From a virus: 28,954 nucleotides of DNA. The DNA lies in the IMG/VR virus record IMGVR_UViG_3300042907_001513, positions 1 to 28,954 of that record; one strand, 5' to 3'. The position numbers and the translations under genes are program-made. The stretch's first letter is position 1. Each line of letters starts with the position of its first letter. The notes under the pieces are model-generated. The model was not told the origin of the DNA. It searched no databases and was given only the letters and a program-made list of their open reading frames with translations. Of this stretch, positions 3,205-26,754 are shown piece after piece.

Positions 3205-3215
3205 TGGGAACTGGT

Positions 3216-4274
3216 TCAGAGCAGTTGAATTGCTTCAGTTTCTCCTTCGATTTGAGGAGCAGCCCACAATTCAAGAGGGAGTTCATCAAGAGACACAGTA
3301 GGAGGAGTAATCATACCCCCAAACTGAGCGTGAAGCTTCTCACAGTAGAAGTTGATAGGTCCGAGAAACACTTCTTCCATAACCTTGACAATTTCGTCGC
3401 GTTCTGCTTCGATGTCAGATTCGTGCTCGGCATAACTGTTACAAATTACGCGAACCGATTCACCCTTTCGCCAGGCAGATATCGCCCACTTGAGAATGTC
3501 TCCAGCATAACGATAAGTAAACTGAGAGTCAAGAATCTTGTGTCGGGTTGCAACTCCATCAATAGAGGAGTAATTGTTAGAACCAAACATAGGATTTACT
3601 TTAATCCATTGCTTGATTTCTTCTTTAGTTGTGTTAAAAACTTTGGTTGATTTAGTCTTTCTATCTAGAATAGCGTTTTCAATTGCCGTGATGACAGGTT
3701 TGTGAGCATACCGCGAAGTAATGCCACAGATGTCTAGCAATTCCCTGACAACATCACGAGTCAGAGGAAGACTCTCATCTTCGATAACCAACTTCACAAC
3801 GTTGATGAAGTCATTCTGAACTGCATTTACCGTACCATCAATTGCATTGGCATACAAACCCATCAAACTTAAAGCAGAATTGTGAGAAAGATTGTCGTAA
3901 AGTTCGTTACCGGTATCCTTTCGCACATACAACGCAACAGGAACGGAGTGATAGTTGTTCTCCTTCACTGCCTTCAGAAGGTGACGGTGGTCGAACAAAC
4001 TCTCATTGCCATCGTCATCTACAAAGACACTAAATGGCCACTGTTTGACTGCCCATCCTTCTTTTGTTGATGCGATCAGAACATCCAGATTGCCTTTGGC
4101 AAGTTCAGTCTTGCGGGGATAGTTGGCAGTTGTGGGAACGATTTTGGAAGTTAATCGTGGAACGAAGTTATCGTCAATTAACTGTAGTAGTGGGTATTGA
4201 GGTCCGTCTTCAGCAGTAACCTCAACACTATGAACAGGAAAAACCTGTCCTGAGTGAACTTTAATTTTTTTCAT
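3216..4274 (-). CDS. Phage protein with possible ParB-like N-terminal segment, 352 aa
   Basis: A 352-residue soluble protein. Residues about 50-120 follow the layout of a ParB/sulfiredoxin-like fold: a basic/hydrophobic lead-in, 'WPFSVFVDDDGN', then SLFDHRHLLKAV at 92-103 and 'SVPVALYV'. The FDHRH at 94-98 stands where ParB-type proteins have their D-G-x-R-R nuclease/NTP motif; the match is partial and I rate it tentative. The remainder (130-352) is mainly helical with no motif I know. It is a single-gene unit: a near-consensus promoter (4324-4352) precedes it and a terminator follows. Unlike the adjacent oxygenase genes its base composition is balanced. It could equally be an unrelated phage protein with a chance match. 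Confidence 0.7.
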   Translation of the reverse strand: MKKIKVHSGQVFPVHSVEVTAEDGPQYPLLQLIDDNFVPRLTSKIVPTTANYPRKTELAKGNLDVLIASTKEGWAVKQWPFSVFVDDDGNESLFDHRHLLKAVKENNYHSVPVALYVRKDTGNELYDNLSHNSALSLMGLYANAIDGTVNAVQNDFINVVKLVIEDESLPLTRDVVRELLDICGITSRYAHKPVITAIENAILDRKTKSTKVFNTTKEEIKQWIKVNPMFGSNNYSSIDGVATRHKILDSQFTYRYAGDILKWAISAWRKGESVRVICNSYAEHESDIEAERDEIVKVMEEVFLGPINFYCEKLHAQFGGMITPPTVSLDELPLELWAAPQIEGETEAIQLL

Positions 4275-4323
4275 TTAGTTTAATGCAATGTGTATTGCCC
4301 ATCAATTGATTGAGCATATGAGT

Positions 4324-4352
4324 ATCATATACCAAAAAGAAGTCTTTGTCAA
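4324..4352 (-). promoter_or_regulatory. Sigma70-type promoter, TTGACA-17-TATGAT
   Basis: On the minus strand TTGACA (4347-4352) and TATGAT (4324-4329) are separated by exactly 17 bases, about 50 bases before the ATG at 4274. It abuts the shared ACTGGCACAAGGGG repeat, in which here only one arm of the stem is kept, so the promoter survives while the terminator hairpin appears lost. Confidence 0.75.
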
Positions 4353-4353
4353 T

Positions 4354-4368
4354 CCCCTTGTGCCAGTT
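4354..4368 (-). repeat. Copy 2 of shared 15-base intergenic repeat
   Basis: Plus-strand ccccttgtgccagtt, extending with 'ct' exactly as in the copy at 8094 (17 shared bases, 4354-4370). It starts at the last base of the stop codon of the oxygenase gene and joins the -35 of the next promoter. Confidence 0.8.
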
Positions 4369-4369
4369 C

Positions 4370-4855
4370 TCAATCTGGACACTCTACACCATATTTTATG
4401 GCAACTGAAAAGCGGTGTCGATCATAAAAAGATGTTGCTTTATGGAGTAAACTTGCATTAAAAGCAACTAGGCGATTTGGAATAGGTAGAATTCCATAAA
4501 GTCTTTCATCAATAAAAAATTGTGTTTCTCCACCATCATTCAAGTCCCAAGTTTCATTCGGATAATATAGAAATGTAACTTCTTCGCTACCCCCATCAGT
4601 ATGGAAATAAGGATTTTCTGATGGAGCAAAACAATTTATGTACATTCTATACAATTTGAGATTTGTAACTAATCCCTTAAGTTTAGTTTCAAATAGATTA
4701 TAAATTGGTTCAGTTTCTGAAATATTATGTATCATTCCAGTAGGTGGATGATTCTCATCGTCTGCTTCACCATAAATGTACACAGAAGATTTACAATATT
4801 CTAGGACAAAATTAAATTCTTCTTGTGATAGAAAATTATCGGTTACTTCAATCAT
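4370..4855 (-). CDS. 2-oxoglutarate/Fe(II) oxygenase, prolyl-hydroxylase-like, 161 aa
   Basis: A compact double-stranded beta-helix oxygenase. The iron ligands are visible as H85-T-D87 and H138, with R148 (RHRFSVAIKY) ten residues on as the likely 2-oxoglutarate carboxylate binder. The stretch TFLYYPNETW...DGGETQFF between them is the standard strand pair of prolyl 4-hydroxylase-type enzymes. The family couples decarboxylation of 2-oxoglutarate to hydroxylation of a protein or small molecule; the substrate is not known here. The frame opens at a GTG at 4861, but the ATG at 4855 overlaps the upstream TGA as ATGA and is chosen. It is about 35% shorter in its N-terminal half than its neighbour at 4852, with which it is clearly paralogous. 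Last gene of a four-oxygenase operon. Confidence 0.88.
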   Translation of the reverse strand: MIEVTDNFLSQEEFNFVLEYCKSSVYIYGEADDENHPPTGMIHNISETEPIYNLFETKLKGLVTNLKLYRMYINCFAPSENPYFHTDGGSEEVTFLYYPNETWDLNDGGETQFFIDERLYGILPIPNRLVAFNASLLHKATSFYDRHRFSVAIKYGVECPD

Positions 4856-5442
4856 ATGCACCCCTCATAATGAATGCCGTACTTTATGGCAATTGAAAAA
4901 CGATGCCGATTACGAAAGGGTGTTGCCGTATGTTCTAAATTAGCATCAAATGAAATTAAACGATTGGGGATTGGTGGGATACCATAAAATCCCCCATCAA
5001 TAAAAAATTTGGTTTCTCCACCATCATCTAAGTCCCAAGTTTCATTTGGATAATATAGAAATGTAGTTCCAACCTCCCCATCGGTATGAAAATAAGACTT
5101 TTCTAATGCGGCAAAACAATTGATGTAAATTCTTGTAATATCTTTTGATTTGTACTGTGGAAATCGAGTTTCTATTGAACTTGAAAATAGATCAAACATT
5201 TTTTTTTGATTTATAATTTTCGTAGGGTCTCCTCCAATTAAATGAGATTCTTCTGGTAATGGATTATCTTCGGTGTAGTGATAAACTTCATGAACTAATC
5301 CAGTACAGTATTTAAAATTAGTCACAGAATTAGAGTCTGAACCTCCACCTTCACCATAAAAATAAGATGCTTTGATGCAATAGTCTAATATAAAATTATA
5401 TTCTTCTTTGGTAAAAAAATTATCATAAACATCAATACTCAT
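4852..5442 (-). CDS. 2-oxoglutarate/Fe(II) oxygenase, prolyl-hydroxylase-like, 196 aa
   Basis: Paralogue of the next gene. Ligands read H119-T-D121 and H171, with R181 as the 2-oxoglutarate-binding residue in RHRFSIAIKYG. The strings FLYYPNETWDL, DGGET, FFID and PIPNRL are shared between the two, showing a tandem duplication. This copy carries an extra segment of roughly 30 residues (about 33-75, including a Gly/Ser-rich loop), close to where substrates of this fold are gripped, so the two copies may differ in target. The ATG overlaps the previous gene's TGA as ATGA. Soluble, no signal peptide. The family assignment is firm; the reaction is not known. Confidence 0.88.
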   Translation of the reverse strand: MSIDVYDNFFTKEEYNFILDYCIKASYFYGEGGGSDSNSVTNFKYCTGLVHEVYHYTEDNPLPEESHLIGGDPTKIINQKKMFDLFSSSIETRFPQYKSKDITRIYINCFAALEKSYFHTDGEVGTTFLYYPNETWDLDDGGETKFFIDGGFYGIPPIPNRLISFDANLEHTATPFRNRHRFSIAIKYGIHYEGCI

Positions 5443-6095
5443 ATTGATTCATCTCCGTACTGCAAAACCTTAAGATTCATAGCAATTGTTATACGAGGAT
5501 AATCTTCAGTATAAACACAAGGATTAACTGAATGTTTAAGATATGATGGAAACATTATGAAATCTCCTTCTTCAATTTCCGGTTCATATTTACTATTATA
5601 TTGATTCCTACCAAACTCAAGTGAAAAGCATCTTAATTGCTCTAGAGGGTCTCTAAAAATAGGAGGTTTATGTCTGGATTTATCAAATGAAAGAAAATGA
5701 ATACACGAAAAATGAACCGTATTAAAAGGTCCACTTAGATGATCGTGCTCTTCTTGATATTCTCCATCAGTATAGCAATTGTACCATATCTCATCAATCA
5801 TAATTTGATATGTTGAGTCAAAAAAACTATCAAGACATTTTGCGTATTTTTTTTCTAAAATTGATTGATATGTATTGTCTTCTCCAAAAAAGATTTCGTT
5901 TCCGGATTTTTCTCCAGAGAAAGATGTCTTAAGTTTATGAGTAAACCATCCTTCAGGAATCGGAAGCTCCTCAGAATCTTTGAGAATCTTTGGAACTAAC
6001 ATTTCTTTTATTTCATCATTATTTTCAACTTTACTGTGAAAAAATGATATTGGAAAAATAGGAATCCTACTTTGCTTATCAAAATTTTTATCCAT
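5439..6095 (-). CDS. Putative 2OG-Fe(II) oxygenase, phage 'Oxy_5'-like, 218 aa
   Basis: A 218-residue member of the second oxygenase type found in cyanophages. The iron-binding region is EEHDHLSGPFNTVHFSC with H117 and H119 (D118 between), followed by RDP at 148-150, then FIMFPSYLKHSV with H188 as distal ligand and P-R201-I-T-I-A-M-N as the 2-oxoglutarate binder. Length is usual for this family. It overlaps the upstream oxygenase by 8 bases and the downstream one by 4, so all four are co-translated. It is only distantly similar to the two prolyl-hydroxylase-like paralogues. Which of D118/H119 is the second ligand cannot be decided by eye. Substrate unknown. Confidence 0.82.
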   Translation of the reverse strand: MDKNFDKQSRIPIFPISFFHSKVENNDEIKEMLVPKILKDSEELPIPEGWFTHKLKTSFSGEKSGNEIFFGEDNTYQSILEKKYAKCLDSFFDSTYQIMIDEIWYNCYTDGEYQEEHDHLSGPFNTVHFSCIHFLSFDKSRHKPPIFRDPLEQLRCFSLEFGRNQYNSKYEPEIEEGDFIMFPSYLKHSVNPCVYTEDYPRITIAMNLKVLQYGDESI

Positions 6096-6780
6096 TCACA
6101 CAATCTCCAATTTTTACTTTAATATTTCCAGAAATACTTATTCTATAGTCGTCAGAAGTATAAAATGGATAAACACTATGATTTAACCAGGATGGAAACA
6201 TTACCATAGTTCCCTCCCAAGTTTTATCTATAAACAAAGGCAAAGTCTCCATTTCCCCATCTGGAGAGATGAACTGAAATTCAAATAAAGAATTTAAGGA
6301 TTCATTTGAATTTTTACAATTTTTATGATTTAACTCATTTGTTAAATCATAAGGAATACGCATCCAAATTACAAATGAATAATCTCCTGCGTGAGAATGT
6401 CTTGGATTAAATTCGTATTTTTTTTGTAAGTTAATCCAAAGACTTTCAAGTTCATAATTAACTTCCTTCTCAAAAAAATCACTATCGTGGTCAAATTTTT
6501 TGACAGGATTTAATTGCTCATCCTCTATTACTTGAAAATAACCTTTAGCAACCTCAATGGAAAAATCCTCAATTAAATGTGAGGATTTAGTGGAAAGTTT
6601 ATATTCTTCTTCAATATTTCCCGCCAAGTATTCATTCCATTTTTTAAGATTAGATTTATTCTCCAAAATAAAATCTACATCTTCATTTATTTTTTCAAGT
6701 ATATCCTCAGGAACTTTTGTCCTAACATAGTATAAGGATGTGATTGGTTCGGCATATATTTTTAATTGCTCTTGGTTCAT
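6088..6780 (-). CDS. Putative 2OG-Fe(II) oxygenase, phage 'Oxy_5'-like, 230 aa
   Basis: First gene of the oxygenase operon. A long, highly charged N-terminal region (about 1-120) precedes the catalytic part: NPRHSHAGDYSFVIWMRIP with H128 and H130, then MVMFPSWLNHSVYPF with H201 and DYR213ISISGN. This order (H-x-H, FPSWL-x-H, R-x-S-x-S) is typical of the oxygenase group common in T4-like cyanophages. The gene is strikingly AT-rich, as is the whole operon, in contrast with the helicase just upstream. A TATAAT with a TGn extension lies 23 bases before the ATG. The target is unknown; DNA, nucleotide, protein or small-molecule hydroxylation are all possible. Confidence 0.82.
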   Translation of the reverse strand: MNQEQLKIYAEPITSLYYVRTKVPEDILEKINEDVDFILENKSNLKKWNEYLAGNIEEEYKLSTKSSHLIEDFSIEVAKGYFQVIEDEQLNPVKKFDHDSDFFEKEVNYELESLWINLQKKYEFNPRHSHAGDYSFVIWMRIPYDLTNELNHKNCKNSNESLNSLFEFQFISPDGEMETLPLFIDKTWEGTMVMFPSWLNHSVYPFYTSDDYRISISGNIKVKIGDCVNG

Positions 6781-6802
6781 ATCTAATTAACTTCATCATC
6801 TA

Positions 6803-6808
6803 ATTATA
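6803..6808 (-). promoter_or_regulatory. Extended -10 (TGGTATAAT) of the oxygenase operon
   Basis: On the minus strand TGG precedes a perfect TATAAT, the extended -10 form that can work without a good -35; none is seen (AGCACC at 17 bases). It lies in the 33-base gap after the helicase stop at 6814 and before the ATG at 6780. Confidence 0.5.
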
Positions 6809-6813
6809 CCACA

Positions 6814-8049
6814 TCAGCGGGTGATGGTGCTGATTGCCACGTCACCCTTCTGGAAGATAATGTCCACCACGTTCTGGACCTTCTGTGCGGTGCTCGTAGA
6901 TGCCTTGTCAAAGGTCGGGCAGACCACCAGACCATAGGATTTGGTGTAGGAGTCCAGAGCACCCGCCTGAAGGGCACCAGAGCGGATCCCAGCGGCATCC
7001 TGGGGGTGCAGGCGCAGCGTCCTACCGACCGTTTGACCGATGCCCACGATGTCCATAGAACGCATAAACACAACCGCTTCCAGAGCAGAGATGTTGATGC
7101 CTTCTGCCAGAATGCTGTGATGAAGAACCACAAACTTCTTGTCGGCATCCTTACCCCACTCATTCAGAGTGTCAAAGAACACCTCACGGTTGACTTTCTG
7201 ACCGTCAATAAATGCACCGTGCTTGGAAGTAATGTGCATCACGGAATAACCCTCTTCTGCCAGTTGTTCGGCAAAGTCAGATTCGGACAGAAGTTGAATG
7301 ATATTCTTGGTAGTCTTGGCACAAATCAGAATCTTATCAACAGGATTATCCTGAATAATCTCAAGCAGATACTCACAGTCCCGTTGACCCACATCCTCAC
7401 CTTTGATGGAAAGACGAAGTTGCTTGGCAATCACCTTAGGAGGAATGATATAACCGTTCTGCACCAGTTGAGGAGCAGGAACCTTGGCAATAATCTGACC
7501 GTAAACATCAACGTCATTCATACCTGCCTTACCCACAACGGTAGAATATTTGGGAGTTGCGGTGAAGAAATAGCAACGCTTTGCCTCCGCAGAAAAATGC
7601 TCTACGGCAGGAAAGAAGTGACGTTGAATGCTATTGTGTGCCTCGTCAAAGTAGATCGTATCCACATCCACATCTGCCTTGGCAAGTTGACCCAAAGAGT
7701 TGTAGGTGGTGAAAATCAGTTTGTTCTGAGTGCTGCTATTGACAAACCAATTGATTTTTGAAGGATTGGTAGAAACAAAGTGATGAGTCTCACCACTATG
7801 AACGTGCATCACGGCAGCATTCGTGATAAACTCAAGATACTCAGAAGAAAGTTGTTCGGCAAGCAGAATGCGAGGAGCAACCACAACAATCACTTTGTTG
7901 GTGGCATTCTCAAACTGCTTCGAAGCATCAAAGATACCAACGTTGGTTTTACCACCGCCGGTAGGGAACACACAAATACCTTTAGAATGCTGCTGGAGAG
8001 CATCAAGGGCATCTTGCTGGTGAGGACGAAGTTGAATCACGAATCTCAT
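6814..8049 (-). CDS. DEAH-type superfamily 2 DNA/RNA helicase, 411 aa
   Basis: An ATP-dependent helicase with all the SF2 motifs in order: RPHQ at 8-11, Walker A PTGGGKT at 29-35, motif Ia APRILLAEQ at 58-66, Walker B DEAH at 135-138, motif III TAT at 163-165, motif V AEGINI at 315-320 and motif VI QTVGRTLR at 339-346. The layout is that of phage helicases related to UvsW and to type III restriction/RecG-like enzymes; I cannot tell whether it is the UvsW orthologue because 411 residues is shorter than T4 UvsW and no N-terminal accessory domain is seen. It likely remodels forked or recombining DNA during replication. Own -10 box at 8064-8069; the oxygenase operon follows after 33 bases. Confidence 0.9.
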   Translation of the reverse strand: MRFVIQLRPHQQDALDALQQHSKGICVFPTGGGKTNVGIFDASKQFENATNKVIVVVAPRILLAEQLSSEYLEFITNAAVMHVHSGETHHFVSTNPSKINWFVNSSTQNKLIFTTYNSLGQLAKADVDVDTIYFDEAHNSIQRHFFPAVEHFSAEAKRCYFFTATPKYSTVVGKAGMNDVDVYGQIIAKVPAPQLVQNGYIIPPKVIAKQLRLSIKGEDVGQRDCEYLLEIIQDNPVDKILICAKTTKNIIQLLSESDFAEQLAEEGYSVMHITSKHGAFIDGQKVNREVFFDTLNEWGKDADKKFVVLHHSILAEGINISALEAVVFMRSMDIVGIGQTVGRTLRLHPQDAAGIRSGALQAGALDSYTKSYGLVVCPTFDKASTSTAQKVQNVVDIIFQKGDVAISTITR

Positions 8050-8063
8050 TTGCGTATGAAACT

Positions 8064-8069
8064 ATTATA
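8064..8069 (-). promoter_or_regulatory. -10 box TATAAT of the helicase gene
   Basis: Perfect TATAAT on the minus strand, 14 bases before the ATG at 8049 and directly after the terminator at 8075-8099. No convincing -35: the region falls in the stem. Same layout as the cassette at 3161-3204, where bases around the -10 (TATAATA-TT-CATAC-CAA) are also shared. Confidence 0.5.
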
Positions 8070-8074
8070 ACAGC

Positions 8075-8099
8075 AAAAAGGGGTCTCACAGGACCCCTT
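8075..8099 (-). terminator. Rho-independent terminator after the structural block
   Basis: On the minus strand AAGGGGTC pairs perfectly with GACCCCTT (8 base pairs, 6-base loop) and is followed by TTTTT. It stands between the 673-aa structural gene and the helicase and so separates the late block from the non-structural genes. Confidence 0.8.
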
Positions 8100-8110
8100 G
8101 TGCCAGTTCT
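8094..8110 (-). repeat. Copy 3 of shared intergenic repeat (17 bases)
   Basis: Plus-strand ccccttgtgccagttct, identical over 17 bases to 4354-4370 and over 15 to 3190-3204. It supplies the upstream arm of the terminator stem. Confidence 0.8.
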
Positions 8111-8150
8111 TAAAGTGTCCTAGTATCTCATCTTCAACGGAGACAAACCT

Positions 8151-8179
8151 AGTCTACAGAGATTTAGAGATTATGTCAA
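8151..8179 (-). promoter_or_regulatory. Candidate promoter, TTGACA-17-TAGACT
   Basis: TTGACA (8174-8179) with a 17-base spacer and a weaker -10, TAGACT (8151-8156), just after the 673-aa gene. A transcript from here would meet the terminator at 8075-8099 before the helicase, so it may be a relic or a conditional start. Confidence 0.35.
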
Positions 8180-8183
8180 GCCC

Positions 8184-10205
8184 CTATGGAACTAAAACTG
8201 TACTAAGAACTCCTGCATTACTTACAATTAATCTGTACTTAGTTCCATTAGCAGATGTGAGAATTAAACCAGTAGAAGTGTTTATACCAACAGAAACATC
8301 GCCACTAATCACTCTTGCAGGTCCGTTTACCAGTAATCTTGTTCCTAAGGGATTATCTACGTTTGTGGTTCCAATACCGACTGTACCAAAAACTGTGTCT
8401 ACTTCTGAGGCATCAATACCAAGACCAAATCTAATTGAAGTTGTTCCAATTCCTATTCCAGATGAATTAATAACTACGGCATCTTCTGGATTGATTAAAT
8501 AATCACCACCAATATGTAAAGGTTGTAATGGATTTGTATTTCCAATACCAATTCTTTGGTCAAAAAATCCATGATTAGTAACATTAATATCAAAGAAAGT
8601 TGATATTCCCGAAGTTGCATTTACATTTTCATCACCTCCACCCATGATTTGATTTCCATTAGCATCAAGAAGTCCGGATTGACCTTCTAAAATATAAAGT
8701 GTTCTAACACTCGTACTGGTTGCTGCTCCAGTTGCAACAATATTTTGAGATACATTTAAAGAAGAAACACTTACATTTCCAGAAACTTGAAGTTTACTTG
8801 TAGGATTCGTAACACCAATTCCAAGATTTCCTCCATAAGTTAGCGTCATTAATGGACTACTGATATTAGAAGAATCTGGTCCATACAACCAATTAAAATT
8901 ACCAGTTCCTACTCCAGCAGCACCATAATGTAAATAGTAATTCAAATTTCCAGTATCATAATTAATAATATCTAAAGACTTAGTTGTACTGGATGGATAT
9001 AGACCAGAAGTATTTCCAAACCTTAGAGCACCATTACTTCCGGTAAGAGTTATGTCTCTACCTACTGCAACAATTGCTTCTGCAGTATCACTCGTAACTT
9101 GTAATCTAGATGCAGAACTTCTTCTAATGTGAATATCAGAAGAAGGAGAGTTTGTACCTACTCCAATTGATTCTGCATAAAGTCTGGTGGAAACTGTTGA
9201 GATTCCAATTGAAGAAGTTTGAGATGCAATATGTGTAATACTTACTCTTGCATCAGAAGTTAAATCTCTTGCCGTACTAGCAATACCAACTACATTACCA
9301 GTAAGTTGCCCAACAAATCTAGATGCTGTTACAATACCAGCAGAAGCAGTAATACCTCCAGAATTAATTGTAACTCCACTACCAACAACAATACTTGTTG
9401 CGGTTGCGCTTCCTAGTACAGGAGTTACAAGAGTTGGTGAGGTCGCAAATACATTCGCACCACTACCAGTTTCATCAGATAGTGCCGCTGCTAATTGTGA
9501 TGATGTAAAAGAACCTAATGATGTTGTGGTATTATTGGATGTAATCGCACCCGTTAAATTTGGTATATTGGTTGTTGTGGAGGCAGTACCAGTTAGGTTT
9601 CCAACAAAACTAGTTGCCGTAACAATACCACCACTAATTGTGACACCAGTTCCTACTTTAAGTGTGGAGAAAGTAGAAATACCATTTGAATTTACATTTC
9701 CTGTTAGGTTTCCAACAAAACTAGGTGCAGTTAGTATTCCAGTTGTGTTTACATTTCCAGTAAGTGCATCAATAGATAATCCATTTCCAGTAATAGGATC
9801 TTGACCCACCTGTAAAGAATAATTTGGAATATCTGTTCCTATACCTACTTTTGATGTAGTGGAAATAGTTCCTGCGCTAATATACCATCCATCAACCGCA
9901 ATTGCATAAATGCTAGTCAATCCAACGGCACTTCCATAAAATGCCGTGGCACTTACAATTCCCGTAGAGGCATTAAGTGTAATTCCTGAACCAACCCTTA
10001 CATTACTATAAAAAGTAGAAATTCCTGTGATTGTCAGATTCGTTGCCGTAACTAATCCAGTAACCTTTGCGGTTCCGTGAACATCCAAAAACTCTCTAGG
10101 AATTGATGTTCCAATTCCAACCAGACCATTTGCATTTACAATAAAGTTGTCATTATCAACCTGAACTCCATTTCTAAAGTTAAATGACTTGTTATAATTT
10201 GCCAT
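8184..10205 (-). CDS. Virion structural / tail-fibre-like protein, 673 aa
   Basis: A Ser/Thr/Gly/Asn-rich repetitive protein of the type found in cyanomyovirus tail regions. It opens with MANYNKSFNFRNGVQVDNDNF and carries about seven degenerate copies of a G-I-G-T-x-x-P-x-x-x-L-x-V-x-G unit, for example VGIGTSIPREFLDVHG near residue 29 and LGIGVTNPTSKLQVSG near 463. Between these are 'SFVGNLTG' strands. Such units occur in trimeric beta-structured fibre shafts. There is no S74 chaperone at its C-terminus, unlike its two large relatives here. An AATAAATA late-promoter-like motif lies 18 bases before the ATG. It sits downstream of the gp38-like adhesin gene. A distal tail/fibre role is inferred. 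Confidence 0.8.
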   Translation of the reverse strand: MANYNKSFNFRNGVQVDNDNFIVNANGLVGIGTSIPREFLDVHGTAKVTGLVTATNLTITGISTFYSNVRVGSGITLNASTGIVSATAFYGSAVGLTSIYAIAVDGWYISAGTISTTSKVGIGTDIPNYSLQVGQDPITGNGLSIDALTGNVNTTGILTAPSFVGNLTGNVNSNGISTFSTLKVGTGVTISGGIVTATSFVGNLTGTASTTTNIPNLTGAITSNNTTTSLGSFTSSQLAAALSDETGSGANVFATSPTLVTPVLGSATATSIVVGSGVTINSGGITASAGIVTASRFVGQLTGNVVGIASTARDLTSDARVSITHIASQTSSIGISTVSTRLYAESIGVGTNSPSSDIHIRRSSASRLQVTSDTAEAIVAVGRDITLTGSNGALRFGNTSGLYPSSTTKSLDIINYDTGNLNYYLHYGAAGVGTGNFNWLYGPDSSNISSPLMTLTYGGNLGIGVTNPTSKLQVSGNVSVSSLNVSQNIVATGAATSTSVRTLYILEGQSGLLDANGNQIMGGGDENVNATSGISTFFDINVTNHGFFDQRIGIGNTNPLQPLHIGGDYLINPEDAVVINSSGIGIGTTSIRFGLGIDASEVDTVFGTVGIGTTNVDNPLGTRLLVNGPARVISGDVSVGINTSTGLILTSANGTKYRLIVSNAGVLSTVLVP

Positions 10206-10241: not shown

Positions 10242-11216
10242 TTAAGTAGGGTTAGTGTTATAAATTATTGGTCCAACTATGGATCCCCCGACATTTGATA
10301 TAGATGTTCCGCTTCCATCATTGTAGATAATAATTGCTCTTCCTTGAGATCCTCCCACATTTCCACTTCCATTACCACCATTGCCGCCGTTAGATCCACC
10401 AGCACCGGCAAAATTTCCGGCACCACCGCCAGCTCCTCCGGGTGTAAGTCCACCACCTCCACCAGGGCTTCCATTATTACTTGCGCCGCCGCCAGCAGCG
10501 CCGCCTGCACCACCGGGGAATCCAGATCCTCCCCCACCTCCAGCACCCGCTGTACGTACTTCTGTTCTACGTCTTGTAATAGACCCTGTTCTTCTTGATT
10601 GATTGGTCCAAGAACCACCACCACCACCACCTCCACCAGATTGAATGTAACCTCTATTTGTAACAACAGTTGGATATTGAATTCCTAAGGCACTACTTCC
10701 ATTACCACCTGGGGTTGAATTAATAAGGCTACTATCTGCTCCTTTTCCCCCATTTCCTCCAGAACCATAAAGTTGCCCACTTGGACCAATTTCAAGTTCT
10801 AATTGCGTATTCCCTTCCCATCCTCCAGTTGCCAGTGCGACATTATTAATTGAACCTAAATCAGAACCAATAATACTATTTACATTAATAATAACTCTTG
10901 TATTTGCACTACTTGGTGGTCTAGTTTTAAATCCACCAATCACGGTTACATTTTGATTATTATATCTAACACGAGCTGTCTGTCTTGTAGAAAAGTTTGG
11001 AATTGAATGAAGATCGACGACAACATTTAATTTTTTGGAATAAAAATTACTAAATCCAATTTGACCTGATTGTGGAATTCCAGTATCTAAAGGAAGGTTT
11101 GATAATGTTCCAACAGTTTGACTAACTCGGTAAGCTCCTAGATTTTTTCCTGTAGGTATACCAAACTCATTCGAAATTTGAGAGAAGGAAATAGGTCCTG
11201 ATGCCTGTAGTGTCAT
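10242..11216 (-). CDS. Glycine-rich gp38-like adhesin, 324 aa
   Basis: The N-terminus (MTLQASGPISFSQISNEFG) is a module common at the start of cyanophage distal-tail proteins. Residues about 60-140 form beta strands. From about 145 the protein is dominated by glycine motifs, including a run of nine Gly near residue 195 and blocks such as PGGAGGAAGGGASNNGSPGG, then ends QGRAIIIYND followed by a hydrophobic tail. This matches the architecture of T-even/S16-type gp38 adhesins, in which poly-glycine type II helices pack into a sandwich and the loops between set receptor specificity; that is known for S16 gp38 and inferred here. An arginine-rich loop (RRTGSITRRRTEVR, about 208-221) interrupts the Gly blocks. 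AAGGAG for this gene lies inside the last codons of the preceding one. Confidence 0.75.
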   Translation of the reverse strand: MTLQASGPISFSQISNEFGIPTGKNLGAYRVSQTVGTLSNLPLDTGIPQSGQIGFSNFYSKKLNVVVDLHSIPNFSTRQTARVRYNNQNVTVIGGFKTRPPSSANTRVIINVNSIIGSDLGSINNVALATGGWEGNTQLELEIGPSGQLYGSGGNGGKGADSSLINSTPGGNGSSALGIQYPTVVTNRGYIQSGGGGGGGGSWTNQSRRTGSITRRRTEVRTAGAGGGGGSGFPGGAGGAAGGGASNNGSPGGGGGLTPGGAGGGAGNFAGAGGSNGGNGGNGSGNVGGSQGRAIIIYNDGSGTSISNVGGSIVGPIIYNTNPT

Positions 11217-11218
11217 CT

Positions 11219-14200
11219 TTACTTAACTCCTTTAAGTTCGTTGATTTCTGCTTTGAGTTCCTTAATTGCCTCAATCAATAGAGGAACAAGTTTTTCATAA
11301 CGAACTGCAAGATAACCATTATCTCTAGTGGTTACTGCTTCTGGAAGTACTTCTAGGATTTCTTGTGCGACAACACCAACATCGGAACCTTCTTTTTCCG
11401 ACTTCTCATTCCAATCAAATGTATTGCCACTGATTGAAAGTACCTTATCAAGAGCATTAGGAATTGGAGTAATATTATCTTTGAGTCTTTGGTCTGAAGT
11501 AAAGAATGCCGTGATGTCTCCAGTTACACTGAGATTGCCACTTGGATCAAGAATCATTCTTACAGTGAAATTATTTGCCCCATCATGAGTATACCATCTA
11601 TGTGTTGTTCCATCTTGTTGAAATGCACATCCAGGAGTTCCATCAGAAACCCAATTAGTACCATTCCACCATGTATTATTTGCTAAATGCGTATAATTTG
11701 ACCCATCGCCAGAGGATAGATAAGCATTTCCAACTCTTATACGAAGATTATTTGAAACATCCACATTTGAATTAAGTGTAGTAGTTCCAGAAACAGTAAG
11801 ATTATCATCAATCGTTGTAGTACCACCAGCAGAATCAATTGTTAAGTCTCCCGTAGAAGTATCAATCTCATTATCGCCAGCAATTCCAATACGAATATTG
11901 TCAATTGTTGCTCCAGCATTGGCATCTAGAAGACCTGATAATGTTGCTGAACTAAGAGTTGTTGCACCAGTAACTCCCAAAGTACCATTGACGCTCAGAT
12001 CATCATCAATTGTTGTGGTTCCACCAGCAGAATCAATTGTTAAGTTTCCTGTGGAAGTATCAATTTCATTATCACCAGCAACACCTATTCTTACGTTATC
12101 AATTGTTGCACCGCCATTGGCGTCTAGAAGACCGGTGAGAGTAGAAGTTCCACTGACGCTCAGATCATCATCAATTGTTGTGGTTCCACCAGCAGAATCA
12201 ATTGTTAAGTTTCCTGTGGAAGTATCAATTTCATTATCACCAGCAACACCTATTCTTACGTTATCAATTGTTGCACCGCCATTGGCGTCTAGAAGACCGG
12301 TGAGAGTAGAAGTTCCACCAACATTTAAATTCTTGACAATACCAACACCACCACTTACAACGAGTGCTCCGTTTGTGGTAGTTGTGGATTGAGTTGTGTC
12401 ACTAACCTTTAATTGTGACTTAGCATTTACTGCAGCAGTAAGTTTAACTTCTTTATTGAATGTAACCGGACCATCAAACTGAGAAAGAATTGTACCAGAG
12501 TTTCCACCCTCAACAACAAGTCTTTCCTTAATTGTAACCTCATCAAATACCGCACTTAATCTAGATGGGTCTTCACCGGTAATCGTTGGAATTGGATTAT
12601 CATAAGTAACTTCTTCACCAGTTGCGGATGATGTCTTACGATTACCTACAAATAAGTCTCCATTATTGTTCATACCAGTATAAACAACAATACCACCAGA
12701 CCTTTCTTGAGATTGTACCAAGAACTCTTCTCTTTCGGTTAAGGTTACGGTCTGAACCTGAGGCAATCCGGTTGAGTAGTTTCCGGGACCATAACCAAGA
12801 TATTCAAAAGTATGACCTGATGCCCTAACGATAGAAGGTCTTCTAAACTCAATTGAGATTGGATTAATCTTTCTAATAAGTGAACCATTATCATGAGCGG
12901 TTTGTCTTGTGGCAAGAGATCCACGAATCACCGTAATAGAACTTGAAGATAGAGTGCTACTTGCAACTCTCATAATCTCTTCATCAATCTGAATATAAGA
13001 ACCAAGTGGGAATCTCTTGGTAATTGCGTCTGCTCCTACAGGGCTTGAAACTGCAATTAGAGTATCAGTAGTACTAATTCCGGCACTGGCAACAAGAGTT
13101 TCCTTATCAAATAAAGGAACACTTCGTACTCCTAGATTCTCCGCAGAAGAATCAGAACTTGCATCATTTGCCGACAGTCCGTGCTTCAGAATATATCCAT
13201 TATTGGAACTATTGATAGAAGGAGTAAGTGATGTAAATGAAGTAGTACTAATTCTATCCTTTACAATATAATCACCTAGATTATTATTTGAAGAATCAAT
13301 AACTCTAAATCTATTACCGGCAACTAGTCCGTGAGGTGCATAGCAATTGAAGGTTCTTATACCAACGCTGCTAGAATAAGTGGTTGTCTGAATCTGTACA
13401 GAAGGTCCAACAACAAAGGCATATTGAGATGTGGTAATAACAGGGTCACCCGTAGTTCTGGCAATAGAAATCTGATTGTCTGCAGAAACTGCCGTAATAC
13501 GATGATAAGTATCGGAAGTTGTACCGGCACCAGTAAATTGAACCACATTACCAATTGCCGTTGTAATTCCTGATGTGGCAACATTAAATCTGGCAGAACC
13601 ATTACCATTACCTATTACAGAAGAATCAAAATATAAACCGTTAGCTCCAGAACCGGCAGAATAACCAGATCCAGAAGAAACAATATCGGCAGAAGCAACC
13701 GCTCCACTGATATGAACAACAACATTTGCGGTTGCTCCCCTCCAAGTTCCAGTCTGAGAACCGTTTAGAAGTTTGACATTTTGATATGTTCCTGGAGTAT
13801 AAGTGGCACCACCATCTAAAGTGCTACAGGTTACAATACCAGCAAGACCGTGCTCTCTGGCAAAGGTAATCGTTGCACTTGATGTAGAACTAGAAACAGA
13901 GGAAACATCAAGACCAACATTTAAACTTGTAAGTAAGGCATCACTAGACTCTTTGGTAATGCTCTTCTTAAGGTCATTTGTTACAACATCTCCAATCGGA
14001 GACCTTTTAGCAAATGTCTTGGCAGATGTTGGAGTATCATTAATATTATCTCTATCCAACTGAGGATACAAGTCAACAACATTTTGACTATACTTGATAT
14101 TTGTAAACTCGGTTGGAACTGCCTTATCCGCACTTAAGACATAGAGGTGATAAACCCCATCCTGAACATTTTCAATATATGGTGTGATTACCTCATTTCT

Positions 14201-17399: not shown

Positions 17400-17738
17400 C
17401 TAATTTAGAATAAGTTCAGCAAGATCGTTGTGAAGTAGTCTATGACAAACAGCACATAAAGGAATACATTTATCAATCTCTTCTTGTAATTTTTGGTAAG
17501 AACCCATTCTCACCATTCCAGATATGCCACCCATATCTTTTGTTGATGGATCGATATGATGTAAATCCATAGCACAAGGAGGGTATTTAACTTTACAGAT
17601 GGCACAAGGTTTATCTTTTGCCTCTTCGACCATTTGTTTTCTCTTATTATGAGAAGTTTGTTTTGTTTTTGGAAGTTTATGTTCAGAGTGCCACTTTTTT
17701 TGATATTCTTTTTGCTTTTCTTTGTTTTTATAAGGCAT
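17400..17738 (-). CDS. HNH endonuclease, 112 aa
   Basis: A small HNH nuclease. The N-terminal 40 residues are strongly basic (KNKEKQKEYQKKWHSEHK), as expected of DNA binding. Then come a C45-x-x-C48 zinc pair, the core DLH60H61IDP, and CIPLC95AVC98H99RLLH103N, that is the second zinc pair and the last catalytic His. All key residues are present, so the enzyme should be active. Free-standing HNH genes of this kind act as homing endonucleases in phages, often next to tRNAs or between late genes. A perfect TATAAATA late motif lies 21 bases before the ATG and the tRNA-Leu gene ends 46 bases upstream. Confidence 0.88.
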   Translation of the reverse strand: MPYKNKEKQKEYQKKWHSEHKLPKTKQTSHNKRKQMVEEAKDKPCAICKVKYPPCAMDLHHIDPSTKDMGGISGMVRMGSYQKLQEEIDKCIPLCAVCHRLLHNDLAELILN

Positions 17739-17767: not shown

Positions 17768-17784
17768 ACCCAAATATTTTTGAG

Positions 17785-17868
17785 TGCGAGTAGCCAGGGT
17801 CGAACTGGCACGAGCATACGCTCAACAGATTTTAAGTCTGGTGTGTCTACCGATTCCACCATACTCGC
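17785..17868 (-). tRNA. tRNA-Leu (anticodon TAA)
   Basis: An 84-base class II tRNA. The acceptor stem GCGAGTA/TACTCGC pairs fully with discriminator A; the anticodon loop is CTTAAAA, giving TAA; the variable arm (GAGCGTATGCTC) forms a stem; the T arm is GCCAG-TTCGACC-CTGGC. No CCA is encoded. Reads the UUA codon, useful in an AT-rich phage. Confidence 0.93.
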
Positions 17869-17910
17869 TTGTATGAGACCATTATAACTCAAAGAGTCAT
17901 AAAGGTCAAG

Positions 17911-17983
17911 TGCTCCTTGAGGGGATCGAACCCACCTTCGCCGCTTTATGAGAACGGTCCATTCACCAGATTGGTAAAGAAGC
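17911..17983 (-). tRNA. tRNA-Met/Ile2 (anticodon CAT)
   Basis: A 73-base tRNA: acceptor GCTTCTT/AAGGAGC (one G-U), D arm CCA-loop-TGG, anticodon stem CCGTT/AGCGG with loop CTCATAA, T arm GTGGG-TTCGATC-CCCTC with one mismatch. The CAT anticodon is either elongator Met or the Ile type that needs lysidine; sequence by eye does not decide, and the start does not look like an initiator. Confidence 0.85.
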
Positions 17984-18774: not shown

Positions 18775-19263
18775 TTATCCTAAGAGAAATCCAGTAAAAA
18801 CAGGATTTTGATTTGGGTGTATATCAATAAAAGAATATGGTCTTACAGTATCATTTGTTGCTAGTGATATGATACATTCTGTGGCAAAAGGACGAAAATT
18901 ATTTACGGTTTCACTGGTAAATGTTCTGACAATTGCTGTATTATTAAGTCTAATTTCTATGTTATTACTTCCACTTGCACTTGCTTCAGTAAATCCAGTA
19001 AAACTAAAATAATATAATCCAGATACAGGAGCAGTAAAATTTCCAGTTGAAGTACTATAATAATTTCCATTATTTAATATTATTGTATTTAAAATAATAT
19101 TTCCAGACAGTATCGGAATTCCTGTTGCACTAATATTTCGGGCAGTGAATGCTGGTCTATTGGAATTTAAAACTATACCAGAACTATCAATCGATAAAGC
19201 AGTATTTCCGGTAGTGCTTTTAATGAAGTTTGCTTGAACTTCACCTACATTTAAGATACTCAT
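18775..19263 (-). CDS. C1q-like fibre/adhesin protein, 162 aa
   Basis: The N-terminus (MSILNVGEVQANFIKS) is a short attachment module like those of other small fibres here. Residues about 37-162 follow the C1q globular domain: RPAFTARN, then an N-x-G-x-Y-Y-S-T-S-T-G-N-F-T-A-P-V-S-G-L-Y-Y-F-S string at about 66-88 that includes the hallmark F-x-A-P-x-x-G-x-Y-x-F, and the typical end FTGFLLG. C1q domains are trimeric jelly-rolls that bind diverse ligands, so this is a likely receptor-binding tip. The start overlaps the upstream TGA/TAA by four bases. Confidence 0.82.
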   Translation of the reverse strand: MSILNVGEVQANFIKSTTGNTALSIDSSGIVLNSNRPAFTARNISATGIPILSGNIILNTIILNNGNYYSTSTGNFTAPVSGLYYFSFTGFTEASASGSNNIEIRLNNTAIVRTFTSETVNNFRPFATECIISLATNDTVRPYSFIDIHPNQNPVFTGFLLG

Positions 19264-22983: not shown

Positions 22984-25900
22984 TTACTTGTTATTATTTA
23001 TAGTATTCTTCAAAATTTCAACCTCATATTTAAGTTCTTTAATTGCTTCTACAAGAAGTGCAACAAAGTTTTGGTATGCAACTGATTTAGGATCATCACC
23101 AAAAACAAGATGAGGTATAACTTTTTCAACTTCTTGAGCTATAAACCCTAACGAGTGCTGATTATTTTGCTTATAATCAAATTCTACTCCACGAAGTTCA
23201 CAAACTTTATTTAATGCACCTTCAATAGTTTTGATATTTTCTTTAATTTTTTCATCGGAGTTTGCTGTAACTGTTCCGGCACAAGTAAGATTTCCTGTTG
23301 AAGGATTAAAGGTAAGTTTTGTGGATGAAACATTCACAGAATCAACCGAACCAGTAGTTATATCATCAAATAAAAGGTATCTGGTGGCATTGGTAGTTGT
23401 GTCATCAGAGAGAGTAACATTTGTAGCTCCAGTAGCACCAGTAGCACCTTGAAGTCCTTGAGAACCTTGAATTCCTGCGACATAATTGCCCAAGTTAAAA
23501 TATACGACCTCAATAATATCTCCGGCAGATGCACCAACGGTAAGAACAACTGTAGTACCATTAGTTGCGGTATAATCTACAGACTCTTGTAAATGAGAAC
23601 CATTTAGATATACAAGAATATATTGTGCTCCATACGTAACCGAGAATGTTGTCTGACCAGCAGTAGCAGTAAATGTTGATTTTGTAATTGTTGATGGAAT
23701 TGTAGCTATGAGCGCACCGGGAATTCCTTGAGCTCCTTGAAGACCCTGAGTACCTTGACGACCCTGAGTACCCTGAAGACCCTGAGTACCCTGTAAACCT
23801 TGGGTTCCCTGAGTTGTTCCCGCAAGTCCCTGAAGACCCTGAAAACCTTGAGCACCCTGTAAACCTTGAGTACCTTGAGCACCTTGAGTTGTTCCTGCAA
23901 GTCCTTGAAGTCCTTGAGTACCTTGACGACCTTGAAGTCCTTGAGTACCTTGAGCACCTTGAGTTGTTCCTGCAGGTCCCTGAAGACCCTGAAGTCCTTG
24001 AGCACCCTGTAGACCTTGAGTACCTTGAGCACCTTGAGTTGTTCCTGCAGGTCCCTGAAGTCCTTGAGTACCTTGACGACCTTGAAGTCCTTGAGTACCT
24101 TGAGCACCTTGAGTTGTTCCTGCAGGTCCCTGAAGACCCTGAAGACCCTGAAGTCCCTGAGCACCCTGCAAACCTTGAGTGCCCTGTGTTGTTCCTGCAA
24201 GTCCTTGAAGTCCCTGAAGTCCCTGAGCACCCTGAAGTCCTTGGGTTCCTTGAGTACCTTGAGTTGTTCCCGCAAGTCCTTGAAGACCCTGAGTACCTTG
24301 ACGACCCTGAAGTCCTTGAGCACCCTGTAACCCTTGAGTACCCTGAGTTGTTCCTGCAAGTCCTTGAAGTCCCTGAAGTCCTTGAGTACCCTGAAGACCT
24401 TGAGCACCCTGTAAACCTTGAGTACCCTGTAAACCTTGAGTACCTTGTAATCCTTGAGTACCTTGAAGTCCTTGAGTACCTTGAGCACCTTGAGTTGTTC
24501 CTGCAAGTCCCTGAAGTCCCTGAAGACCTTGAGTACCCTGTAAACCTTGAGAACCTTGAGTACCCTGAGTTGTTCCAGCAAGTCCCTGAAGTCCTTGAAG
24601 TCCTTGAGCACCCTGAAGTCCTTGAGTACCCTGAAGTCCTTGAGTACCTTGACGACCTTGAGTACCCTGAAGACCTTGAGCACCCTGTAAACCTTGAGCA
24701 CCCTGAAGTCCTTGAGTACCCTGTGTTGTTCCTGCAAGTCCCTGAAGTCCCTGAGTACCTTGGAGACCTTGAGCACCCTGAAGTCCTTGAGCACCCTGTA
24801 ACCCTTGAGTACCCTGACGACCTTGAGTACCCTGAAGTCCTTGTGTTCCTTGTAATCCTTGAGTACCCTGAAGTCCTTGCGTCCCTTGTAATCCTTGAGT
24901 ACCCTGAAGACCTTGAGAACCCTGAGAACCACTACCTTGTAATCCTTGTAATCCTTGAGTACCCTGAAGTCCTTGAGTGCCTTGTAATCCTTGAGCACCC
25001 TGAAGTCCTTGTGTGCCTTGTAAACCTTGAGTGCCTTGTAAACCTTGAGTGCCTTGACGACCTTGAGTGCCTTGTAAACCTTGAGTACCCTGAAGTCCTT
25101 GAGTACCCTGCAATCCTTGAGTACCTTGACGACCTTGAGTACCCTGTAAACCTTGAGCACCCTGAAGTCCTTGTGTTCCTTGTATTCCTTGAGTACCCTG
25201 AAGTCCCTGAGCACCTTGCAGTCCTTGAATACCAGCGGCAAATGGAGTAACCCAACTAACTCCAATACCAGTAGAAATTAAAACACTACCAGCAATACCT
25301 ACATTTCCATAATAATCTTCTACTCTTGAGGTAATACCAATTTTACCACCAACATAAAGATTTTTTTCAATACCAACACCACCTTCCGTAACGATTGAAC
25401 CAGTATCTTTATTTGTTGATTCTGTGGTGCTAGTTACATAAACTACATCATTAATTTGAGTGGTTCCTGCATTTGAATCTAGAATAAGATTTCCACTATT
25501 TGTACTGACCGTATTTGTATCAAGTTTAATATTATCAAATGTTCCTACACCAGTAACATTTAAATTATTAATATTTACCTGAGTATCAAATGTTGAGATT
25601 CCACTTACTCTTAAACGATTAAGTGTTGTAAGACCAGTAACACCTAAATCACTCTCAATATTTACTTTTTGCTTAAATGTTGATAGTCCGGTTACATATA
25701 AATCAGTTACATCAATTGCTCCGATAAACTTTGTTGCCGTTACAATACCCGTAAAATAAGCACTTGTTCCGGTAACAAATCCAACTGTTGTAACTCCAGT
25801 AACTTGAAGATTTCTAGTTGTTGTGGTTCCTGTTACTCCAAGAGTTCCAATTGTCGCTATTCCGGTTATAGTAAGATTATCAATAAAGGTTCCGCCTTTA

Positions 25901-26754
25901 AAACTAGATATTCCTAAAACATCTAGTAAAACCTTTGGTCTAGTACTTCCAATACCAACACGATTATTAACTTCATCAAATACAAAGTTTGAAGCTCCAT
26001 CAACTAATCCGGCAGAATTATGAAACTGAACTTGTTGATATGTTCCTCCTGCCCCTGCTCTAATTGTATCTTGATTTGTCCAAATTAAACCACCAAAATT
26101 ATTTTTAACTAAAATTTGATTATTAATTCCTGGATTATTAAAGTAATCATAAATTGTTCCAGTAAGTCTAAGGTCTCCCTGAACGTGCAATTCTTGTGTT
26201 GGATTTGTGGTTCCTATACCAACCAATCCAGTTGGTTGTACCGTAAAAAGTGCTCCACCACTACCAACATTTAACCCATTACCAATTGTTAAAATTCCAA
26301 CAGAACTATTAAAGACTAAATTGGAAGATGTTGCAAAGTCATTATTTTCTTTAAATAAAACTCCACCATTATTTCCTGGTGGAGATACTGTTATTGTTGC
26401 GGCAATTGCAGGAGACCCATCAGGATTCAAATAACCCTGTACCGTAATAGCACTTCCTTTAAAATTAAGTTGACTAATACTACTAACTCCTCCCGGTGGA
26501 GTTATAACACCTTCTTCATAAACAGTAATTCCCGCAGGAATTAATCCTCCACCAACCGGAATCCAATATCTTTCTCCCGGATTTTCTAAAAGAGATATAA
26601 GTTGATATTGAGTTCCTAATGGTATTGTTGGTCCCGGTACAGCAGGATCTCCAAGATTTGGTTCTGCCTGGTCAAGATCCAAATACCTATATCTATCAGT
26701 AGATAGTGAACCCTGTGGAGTTCTTTTGACTCTATTACTAAGGTATCTTGGCAT
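22984..26754 (-). CDS. Collagen-like structural protein with S74 chaperone, 1256 aa
   Basis: Domains in order: a tail-associated head (1-140), beta units with GIGTTNPTQELHVQG repeats and 'TVTGVTT' strands (140-505), a collagen-like region of about 505 residues (508-1012, nt 23719-25233), a beta domain (IPSTITKSTFTA...), and a C-terminal S74 chaperone from S1166-D-E-K-I-K-E-N-I to the end. The collagen part has roughly 160 Gly-X-Y triplets with Gln nearly always at Y and Leu, Thr, Ala or Arg at X. Eleven G-T-T-Q insertions break the register, plus one GSGSQ. Proline appears only in three GPA and one GIP triplets and lysine is absent. The S74 domain normally drives trimerisation, which suits a triple helix. 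A fibre shaft is the likely role. Confidence 0.88.
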   Translation of the reverse strand: MPRYLSNRVKRTPQGSLSTDRYRYLDLDQAEPNLGDPAVPGPTIPLGTQYQLISLLENPGERYWIPVGGGLIPAGITVYEEGVITPPGGVSSISQLNFKGSAITVQGYLNPDGSPAIAATITVSPPGNNGGVLFKENNDFATSSNLVFNSSVGILTIGNGLNVGSGGALFTVQPTGLVGIGTTNPTQELHVQGDLRLTGTIYDYFNNPGINNQILVKNNFGGLIWTNQDTIRAGAGGTYQQVQFHNSAGLVDGASNFVFDEVNNRVGIGSTRPKVLLDVLGISSFKGGTFIDNLTITGIATIGTLGVTGTTTTRNLQVTGVTTVGFVTGTSAYFTGIVTATKFIGAIDVTDLYVTGLSTFKQKVNIESDLGVTGLTTLNRLRVSGISTFDTQVNINNLNVTGVGTFDNIKLDTNTVSTNSGNLILDSNAGTTQINDVVYVTSTTESTNKDTGSIVTEGGVGIEKNLYVGGKIGITSRVEDYYGNVGIAGSVLISTGIGVSWVTPFAAGIQGLQGAQGLQGTQGIQGTQGLQGAQGLQGTQGRQGTQGLQGTQGLQGTQGLQGTQGRQGTQGLQGTQGLQGTQGLQGAQGLQGTQGLQGTQGLQGLQGSGSQGSQGLQGTQGLQGTQGLQGTQGLQGTQGLQGTQGRQGTQGLQGAQGLQGAQGLQGTQGLQGLAGTTQGTQGLQGAQGLQGAQGLQGTQGRQGTQGLQGTQGLQGAQGLQGLQGLAGTTQGTQGSQGLQGTQGLQGLQGLAGTTQGAQGTQGLQGTQGLQGTQGLQGTQGLQGAQGLQGTQGLQGLQGLAGTTQGTQGLQGAQGLQGRQGTQGLQGLAGTTQGTQGTQGLQGAQGLQGLQGLAGTTQGTQGLQGAQGLQGLQGLQGPAGTTQGAQGTQGLQGRQGTQGLQGPAGTTQGAQGTQGLQGAQGLQGLQGPAGTTQGAQGTQGLQGRQGTQGLQGLAGTTQGAQGTQGLQGAQGFQGLQGLAGTTQGTQGLQGTQGLQGTQGRQGTQGLQGAQGIPGALIATIPSTITKSTFTATAGQTTFSVTYGAQYILVYLNGSHLQESVDYTATNGTTVVLTVGASAGDIIEVVYFNLGNYVAGIQGSQGLQGATGATGATNVTLSDDTTTNATRYLLFDDITTGSVDSVNVSSTKLTFNPSTGNLTCAGTVTANSDEKIKENIKTIEGALNKVCELRGVEFDYKQNNQHSLGFIAQEVEKVIPHLVFGDDPKSVAYQNFVALLVEAIKELKYEVEILKNTINNNK
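22995..23002 (-). promoter_or_regulatory. Late promoter motif TATAAATA
   Basis: Exact match on the minus strand within the last codons of the 1256-aa gene, upstream of the GTG at 22968. Confidence 0.5.
23719..25233 (-). repeat. Low-complexity DNA coding for collagen-like repeats
   Basis: About 1.5 kb of 9- and 18-base tandem units (plus strand: cttgagtac, cctgaagtc and variants). The same unit spelled with different synonymous codons shows old repeats mixed with newer exact ones. Such DNA expands and contracts easily, so fibre length may vary between isolates and assembly here needs care. Confidence 0.9.

Follow-up and report, generated by a model that had tools for sequence, protein, structure and literature searches.

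A run of four overlapping 2OG-Fe(II) oxygenase genes from two families in a putative cyanophage

Oxygenase gene runs in cyanophages and in the window

Runs of adjacent 2OG-Fe(II) oxygenase genes are known from isolated cyanophages, with runs of four in S-SCSM1 and ACG-2014h and runs of three in S-MbCM6 and P-SSM7. S-SCSM1, for which 24 2OG genes have been reported (PMC9602691), carries its four consecutive genes as ORF240-243 (MK867354.2; PMC9602691), with overlaps of 8, 4, and 1 bases; this run lies one small gene behind a helicase that matches the helicase described below, and tail-fiber genes follow. In ACG-2014h (S-MbCM7), genes 042-045 are consecutive, and all four are 2OG oxygenases by Pfam or PHROG, the last belonging to PF13759; their annotations read ferrochelatase, DNA endonuclease V (twice), and 2OG oxygenase. 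S-MbCM6 has three overlapping 2OG genes, 019-021 (PF13640, PF13759, and PF13640/phrog_274), and Sf-CH8 has a looser cluster of four behind its helicase. Across eight cyanophage genomes, which were picked for holding relatives of the genes studied here and are not a random sample, we counted 2-12 PF13759 matches and 5-13 PF13640 matches per genome, some being counted in both. Among solved structures, P. putida prolyl-4-hydroxylase (PPHD; 4iw3/4j25) and human PHD2/EGLN1 provide the best folds for one of the enzymes described below (gene D) and rank high among the matches for another (gene B).

We analyzed a viral DNA of 28,954 nucleotides (IMG/VR record IMGVR_UViG_3300042907_001513), hereafter the window. 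As the initial annotation of this DNA had proposed, ORF calling gave four consecutive, overlapping genes, A-B-C-D, which run on the minus strand from position 6780 down to 4370 as one co-directional unit. Gene A (6088..6780) encodes 230 aa, gene B (5439..6095) 218 aa, gene C (4852..5442) 196 aa, and gene D (4370..4855) 161 aa. A and B overlap by 8 bases, B and C by 4, and C and D by 4, the last value assuming that D starts at the ATG at 4855; a GTG at 4861, two codons upstream, is an alternative start that would give a product of 163 aa. A sigma-70-like site (TTGACA-17-TATGAT; 4324..4352, minus strand) just 3′ of D suggests that the array ends just past D and that the gene after it is served by a separate promoter, the site being a consensus match only. 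In a promoter/terminator scan of the region, the total number of matches was no better than chance.

The same annotation had set this multi-gene unit against the single 2OG oxygenases of other cyanophages. That distinction did not survive the comparison, because each of the eight genomes holds many such genes and runs occur in isolates; the run of four in the window is a further example of the runs of three or more 2OG genes known from Kyanoviridae-type genomes. The individual runs differ in their details. That of S-SCSM1 has the family order PF13759-13640-13640-13759, unlike the window; B is 24% identical to ORF240 and A is 26% identical to ORF243, and C and D are without a clear match to ORF241/242. 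Given these low identities and missing matches, the S-SCSM1 run is not orthologous gene for gene. The order in ACG-2014h is likewise unlike that of the window, and the S-MbCM6 run has three genes rather than four and does not adjoin the helicase; its gene 021 shares 46% identity with D. A nucleotide search for close isolate relatives of the window returned no match.

Family assignment, predicted active sites, and the phrog_274 label

Profile searches with Pfam and PHROGs agreed with the earlier reading of all four products as oxygenases of two types, with no non-oxygenase among them. Genes A and B matched PF13759 (E=1.8e-12 and E=1.5e-10, respectively) and C and D matched PF13640 (E=3.5e-6 and E=2.7e-7), all above the curated cut-offs. 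In PHROGs, A and B fell into phrog_81 (2OG-Fe(II) oxygenase), and C and D fell into phrog_274, which is labeled "DNA endonuclease V." Within the two types, A and B share about 29% identity across 130 residues, and C and D share 46%.

The putative ligand sets are H128/H130/H201 with 2OG-binding Arg R213 in A, H117/H119/H188 with R201 in B, H119/D121/H171 with R181 in C, and H85/D87/H138 with R148 in D. The His/Asp-His set plus Arg claimed at the outset for every gene was therefore found in C and D, whereas A and B have His rather than Asp at the second ligand position; the iron motif reads HxD...H in C and D and HxH...H in A and B. We found His117, His119, His188, and Arg201 (B numbering) invariant in a 30-sequence phrog_81 alignment, and His85, Asp87, His138, and Arg148 (D numbering) invariant in a 22-sequence phrog_274 alignment; the invariant R201 of B and R148 of D are the predicted basic residues for the 2OG C5 carboxylate. 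Profile-profile alignment with hhalign placed His119 of B against Asp87 of D, that is, against the HxD Asp of C and D. The solved relative 3bvc also carries HxH. On these alignments, HxH is a family trait of the PF13759/phrog_81 relatives included here, and a three-histidine iron site in PF13759 proteins is possible. The iron chemistry of A and B may consequently differ from that of known hydroxylases. Literature searches for the HxH motif in the PF13759/PF13640 families found nothing.

AF2 models, built from alignments of window and IMG/VR sequences only, were confident, with a pLDDT of 83.8 and a pTM of 0.83 for B, and a pLDDT of 92.6 and a pTM of 0.89 for D. When searched with Foldseek, the B model retrieved 3bvc and 2rg4 first (uncharacterized, PF13759-like), then P4H/PHD2; for the D model, PHD2 and P. 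putida P4H came out on top. Both models matched P4H/PHD2 with a Foldseek probability of 1.00, and the matches include the P. putida P4H-EF-Tu complex 4iw3. A search of the PDB with the phrog_274 profile also matched EGLN1/PHD2 and prolyl 4-hydroxylases by sequence, so that P4H/PHD2 is the nearest fold and profile in the Foldseek and phrog_274 searches. The models predict a DSBH fold for B and D, and A and C would share it by sequence kinship only. Identity to PPHD and PHD2/EGLN1 is about 20% or lower, and A and B have HxH instead of HxD.

The phrog_274 label deserves separate treatment. We rejected the assignment of this family as DNA endonuclease V, since 2OG oxygenase profiles match it and Pyr_excise (PF03013) does not: with Pfam, no PF03013 match was obtained in C, in D, or in the "DenV"-annotated genes that we tested. 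In S-MbCM7 (ACG-2014h), S-MbCM6, and P-RSM6, the genes annotated as "DNA endonuclease V" match 2OG oxygenase families, some of them below the curated cut-off, and the "ferrochelatase" gene of S-MbCM7 is a PF13640 oxygenase by Pfam (E=9e-19). Genes of RefSeq cyanophages that carry one of these two labels and are 2OG-Fe(II) oxygenases by Pfam/PHROG lie at L001:4458-6005, L002:6001-6489, L008:1270-1800, and L008:2635-3162 in our set of loci. A true Pyr_excise gene is present as a separate single gene, at other coordinates, in seven of the eight cyanophage genomes. The mislabel matters because Sullivan et al. list denV as a separate count, in 13/16 genomes (PMC3037559), a count that may mean either the phrog_274 family or the real gene.

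The conserved pair and its genomic setting

A survey for the same four-gene order recovered it in three further contigs. Two further contigs from IMG/VR contain A-D with 100% identity, and IMGVR_UViG_3300042515_001753 (233,886 b; hereafter L013) contains them in the same order with 88%-93% identity. Because other contigs carry the array, it is not an assembly accident. Against L013, dN/dS was 0.15 for A, 0.21 for B, 0.13 for C, and 0.09 for D, indicating that all four genes are under purifying selection. L013 has the same flanking helicase and tail genes as the window and carries psbA; 3′ of D, it has a 178-aa ORF where the window has a 352-aa gene. In the L013 contig (G001), psbA (10645-11693) is split, and the longer of its two parts has two in-frame TAG codons; an intron, an insertion, or an assembly error may explain the split.

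Beyond these nearest relatives, the four genes differ in their distribution. In every one of the 26 loci found with B, which comprise 19 distinct B sequences with identities as low as about 40%, B is immediately followed on its 3′ side by an overlapping phrog_274 ORF. Gene A is confined to the nearest relatives, L013-L017 and L033, and accompanies B and C in L014-L017 and L033; gene D is limited to L013 and the identical contigs. Judged from this distribution, the core looks like B plus one C/D-type gene, with A and the second phrog_274 copy as additions. B and its phrog_274 partner are probably translationally coupled, and their conserved pairing is the sole sign of the enzymes working together, as they would in the multi-step pathway suggested by the initial annotation. 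Although C and D are 46% identical, a single recent duplication is probably too simple an account of them: in the tree, C groups with the single copies of L014, L016, and L018, while D is nearest by distance to those of more distant loci, with weak support, and either copy may be the older. In another phage contig (L034:1637-6111), two Asp_Arg_Hydrox (PF05118) genes, a methyltransferase gene, and a PF13640 gene precede the B + phrog_274 pair and a helicase.

Directly upstream of the array in the window is a UvsW-like helicase (6814..8049, minus strand), followed in the tail neighborhood by a tail protein (8184-10205, minus strand) and a glycine-rich tail-fiber/adhesin-like protein (10242-11216, minus strand), whose polyglycine-rich stretches (GAGGGGGSG...) resemble glycine-rich phage adhesins. 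Homologs of the tail protein, the glycine-rich adhesin, and/or the helicase flank the B + phrog_274 pair in most loci inspected. Linkage between uvsW and 2OG genes is common and not universal, and a strict form of it was rejected on the counterexample of S-SKS1, where the 4 kb around the helicase lack any annotated 2OG gene. The best isolate match of the window helicase is the S-SCSM1 helicase, at 58% identity. The helicase matches, together with psbA in the 234-kb relative, support the view that the window comes from a cyanophage.

The array is more AT-rich than both of its neighbors, as first noted, with a GC content of 0.29-0.32 against 0.381 for the window. The initial annotation had also proposed that the genes were gained as cargo, which AT-richness does not support. 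The GC3 of the array (0.16-0.23) falls in the range of the window's tail genes (0.12-0.23) and is thus ordinary for this DNA, so its low GC is no sign of recent gain. The GC3 outliers are instead the helicase, at 0.52, and the gene for 352 aa (3216-4274, minus strand), at 0.39, compared with 0.12-0.23 for most other genes in the window.

A tRNA-Leu (TAA) gene (17784-17868, minus strand) and a tRNA-Met (CAT) gene (17910-17983, minus strand) lie inside the tail-fiber cluster, and an ORF beside them (17400-17738) reads like an HNH endonuclease and has no Pfam match. A collagen-like tail fiber of 1256 aa (22984-26754, minus strand) contains long Gly-X-Y runs of GLQGTQ/GLQGAQ with very few prolines, and its terminal region resembles the intramolecular-chaperone end seen in tail fibers. 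A C1q-domain protein is encoded near it (18775-19263).

Candidate substrates and rival explanations

We give roughly an even chance to the array being a lineage-specific expansion of cyanophage 2OG-Fe(II) oxygenases around the B + C/D pair, encoding active protein hydroxylases that are made together. On this reading, A and a second phrog_274 enzyme would have been added, in the lineage of the window, to a B + phrog_274 pair in the tail-fiber/uvsW-helicase region. All four products would be active hydroxylases, produced together, that draw on host 2OG, Fe, and O2 during infection and act on amino-acid side chains in proteins. We infer protein substrates from the closest solved structures, which belong to protein prolyl hydroxylases and include a complex with EF-Tu (4iw3); the tail-fiber neighborhood makes virion proteins plausible targets. 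The most plausible substrates would be tail-fiber proteins that the phage encodes in this cluster or, on the host side, a protein such as EF-Tu. The window's only collagen-like fiber is a poor candidate for a classical collagen prolyl-4-hydroxylase, since its repeats are nearly proline-free; we therefore disfavor collagen prolyl hydroxylation of that protein. The HxH motif of A and B, a uvsW linkage that is not universal, and the C/D relative among apparent glycan genes described below also weigh against the expansion reading. In a narrower proposal, B and its phrog_274 partner would make up an obligate hetero-oligomer that hydroxylates tail-fiber proteins, its PF13759 subunit using a three-histidine iron center, and A and the second phrog_274 enzyme would add target residues; this strikes us as very improbable.

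The expansion reading has its most serious competitor in the idea that four functionally unrelated oxygenases simply share a gene-gain hot spot without a common pathway, an idea compatible with any of the substrates discussed here. In its favor, other genomes have runs of different orders and families at a comparable place, and A and D lie outside the conserved core; yet the adjacency of B to its phrog_274 partner holds in 26/26 loci, even at about 40% identity, and the genes of the array overlap by 4-8 bases. On balance, we regard the hot spot as a realistic possibility that falls short of even.

Substrates other than proteins also have to be weighed. The enzymes might act on glycans, lipids, or small molecules, for instance in tailoring surface polysaccharide or lipid A, and some neighborhoods of their relatives would suit such a role. 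In L006 (Marine virus AG-345-F15; 3214-8229), a C/D relative lies among ORFs that, judged by eye, resemble glycosyltransferases and a nucleotide-sugar epimerase; a gene annotated as a glycosyltransferase lies behind the B relative of Sf-CH8; and clusters in other contigs include methyltransferase and Asp_Arg_Hydrox (PF05118) genes, the latter family also including lipid A hydroxylases. However, the window itself has no glycosyltransferase among the ORFs scanned, in line with the initial annotation, and both the fold and the profile searches matched protein prolyl hydroxylases, which makes this alternative unlikely in our judgment. Nucleic acids appear less probable still as substrates. DNA repair has been suggested for cyanophage 2OG enzymes (PMC3037559), and either oxidative repair or base hydroxylation would sit well with an array that follows a DNA helicase and with the N6/N4 methylase genes found near the pair in some relatives. 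Against this, no AlkB or TET/JBP family appeared among the Pfam matches of the window up to E=1, and phrog_274 is wrongly labeled "endonuclease V," since the real Pyr_excise gene lies elsewhere in 7/8 genomes. The same publication proposed that cyanophages modulate 2OG and cited their numerous 2OG oxygenases (PMC3037559), from which one could argue that the main effect of the array is to lower cellular 2-oxoglutarate by uncoupled turnover and so alter host nitrogen signaling via NtcA. We find this scarcely credible as the main effect, for one enzyme would be enough, and a conserved pair from two families with distinct conserved motifs would be left unexplained. Both proposals from the literature, DNA repair and 2OG draw-down, thus find weaker support here than protein substrates.

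Few unexplained genes of marine cyanophages are as numerous as 2OG oxygenases. Because several genes labeled "DNA endonuclease V" or "ferrochelatase" in fact belong to this superfamily, the published counts (1-5 per genome) are probably too low. Overall, our analyses sharpen the problem to a testable two-family pair, a predicted HxH iron motif in the aligned phrog_81 relatives, and a set of misfiled genes.
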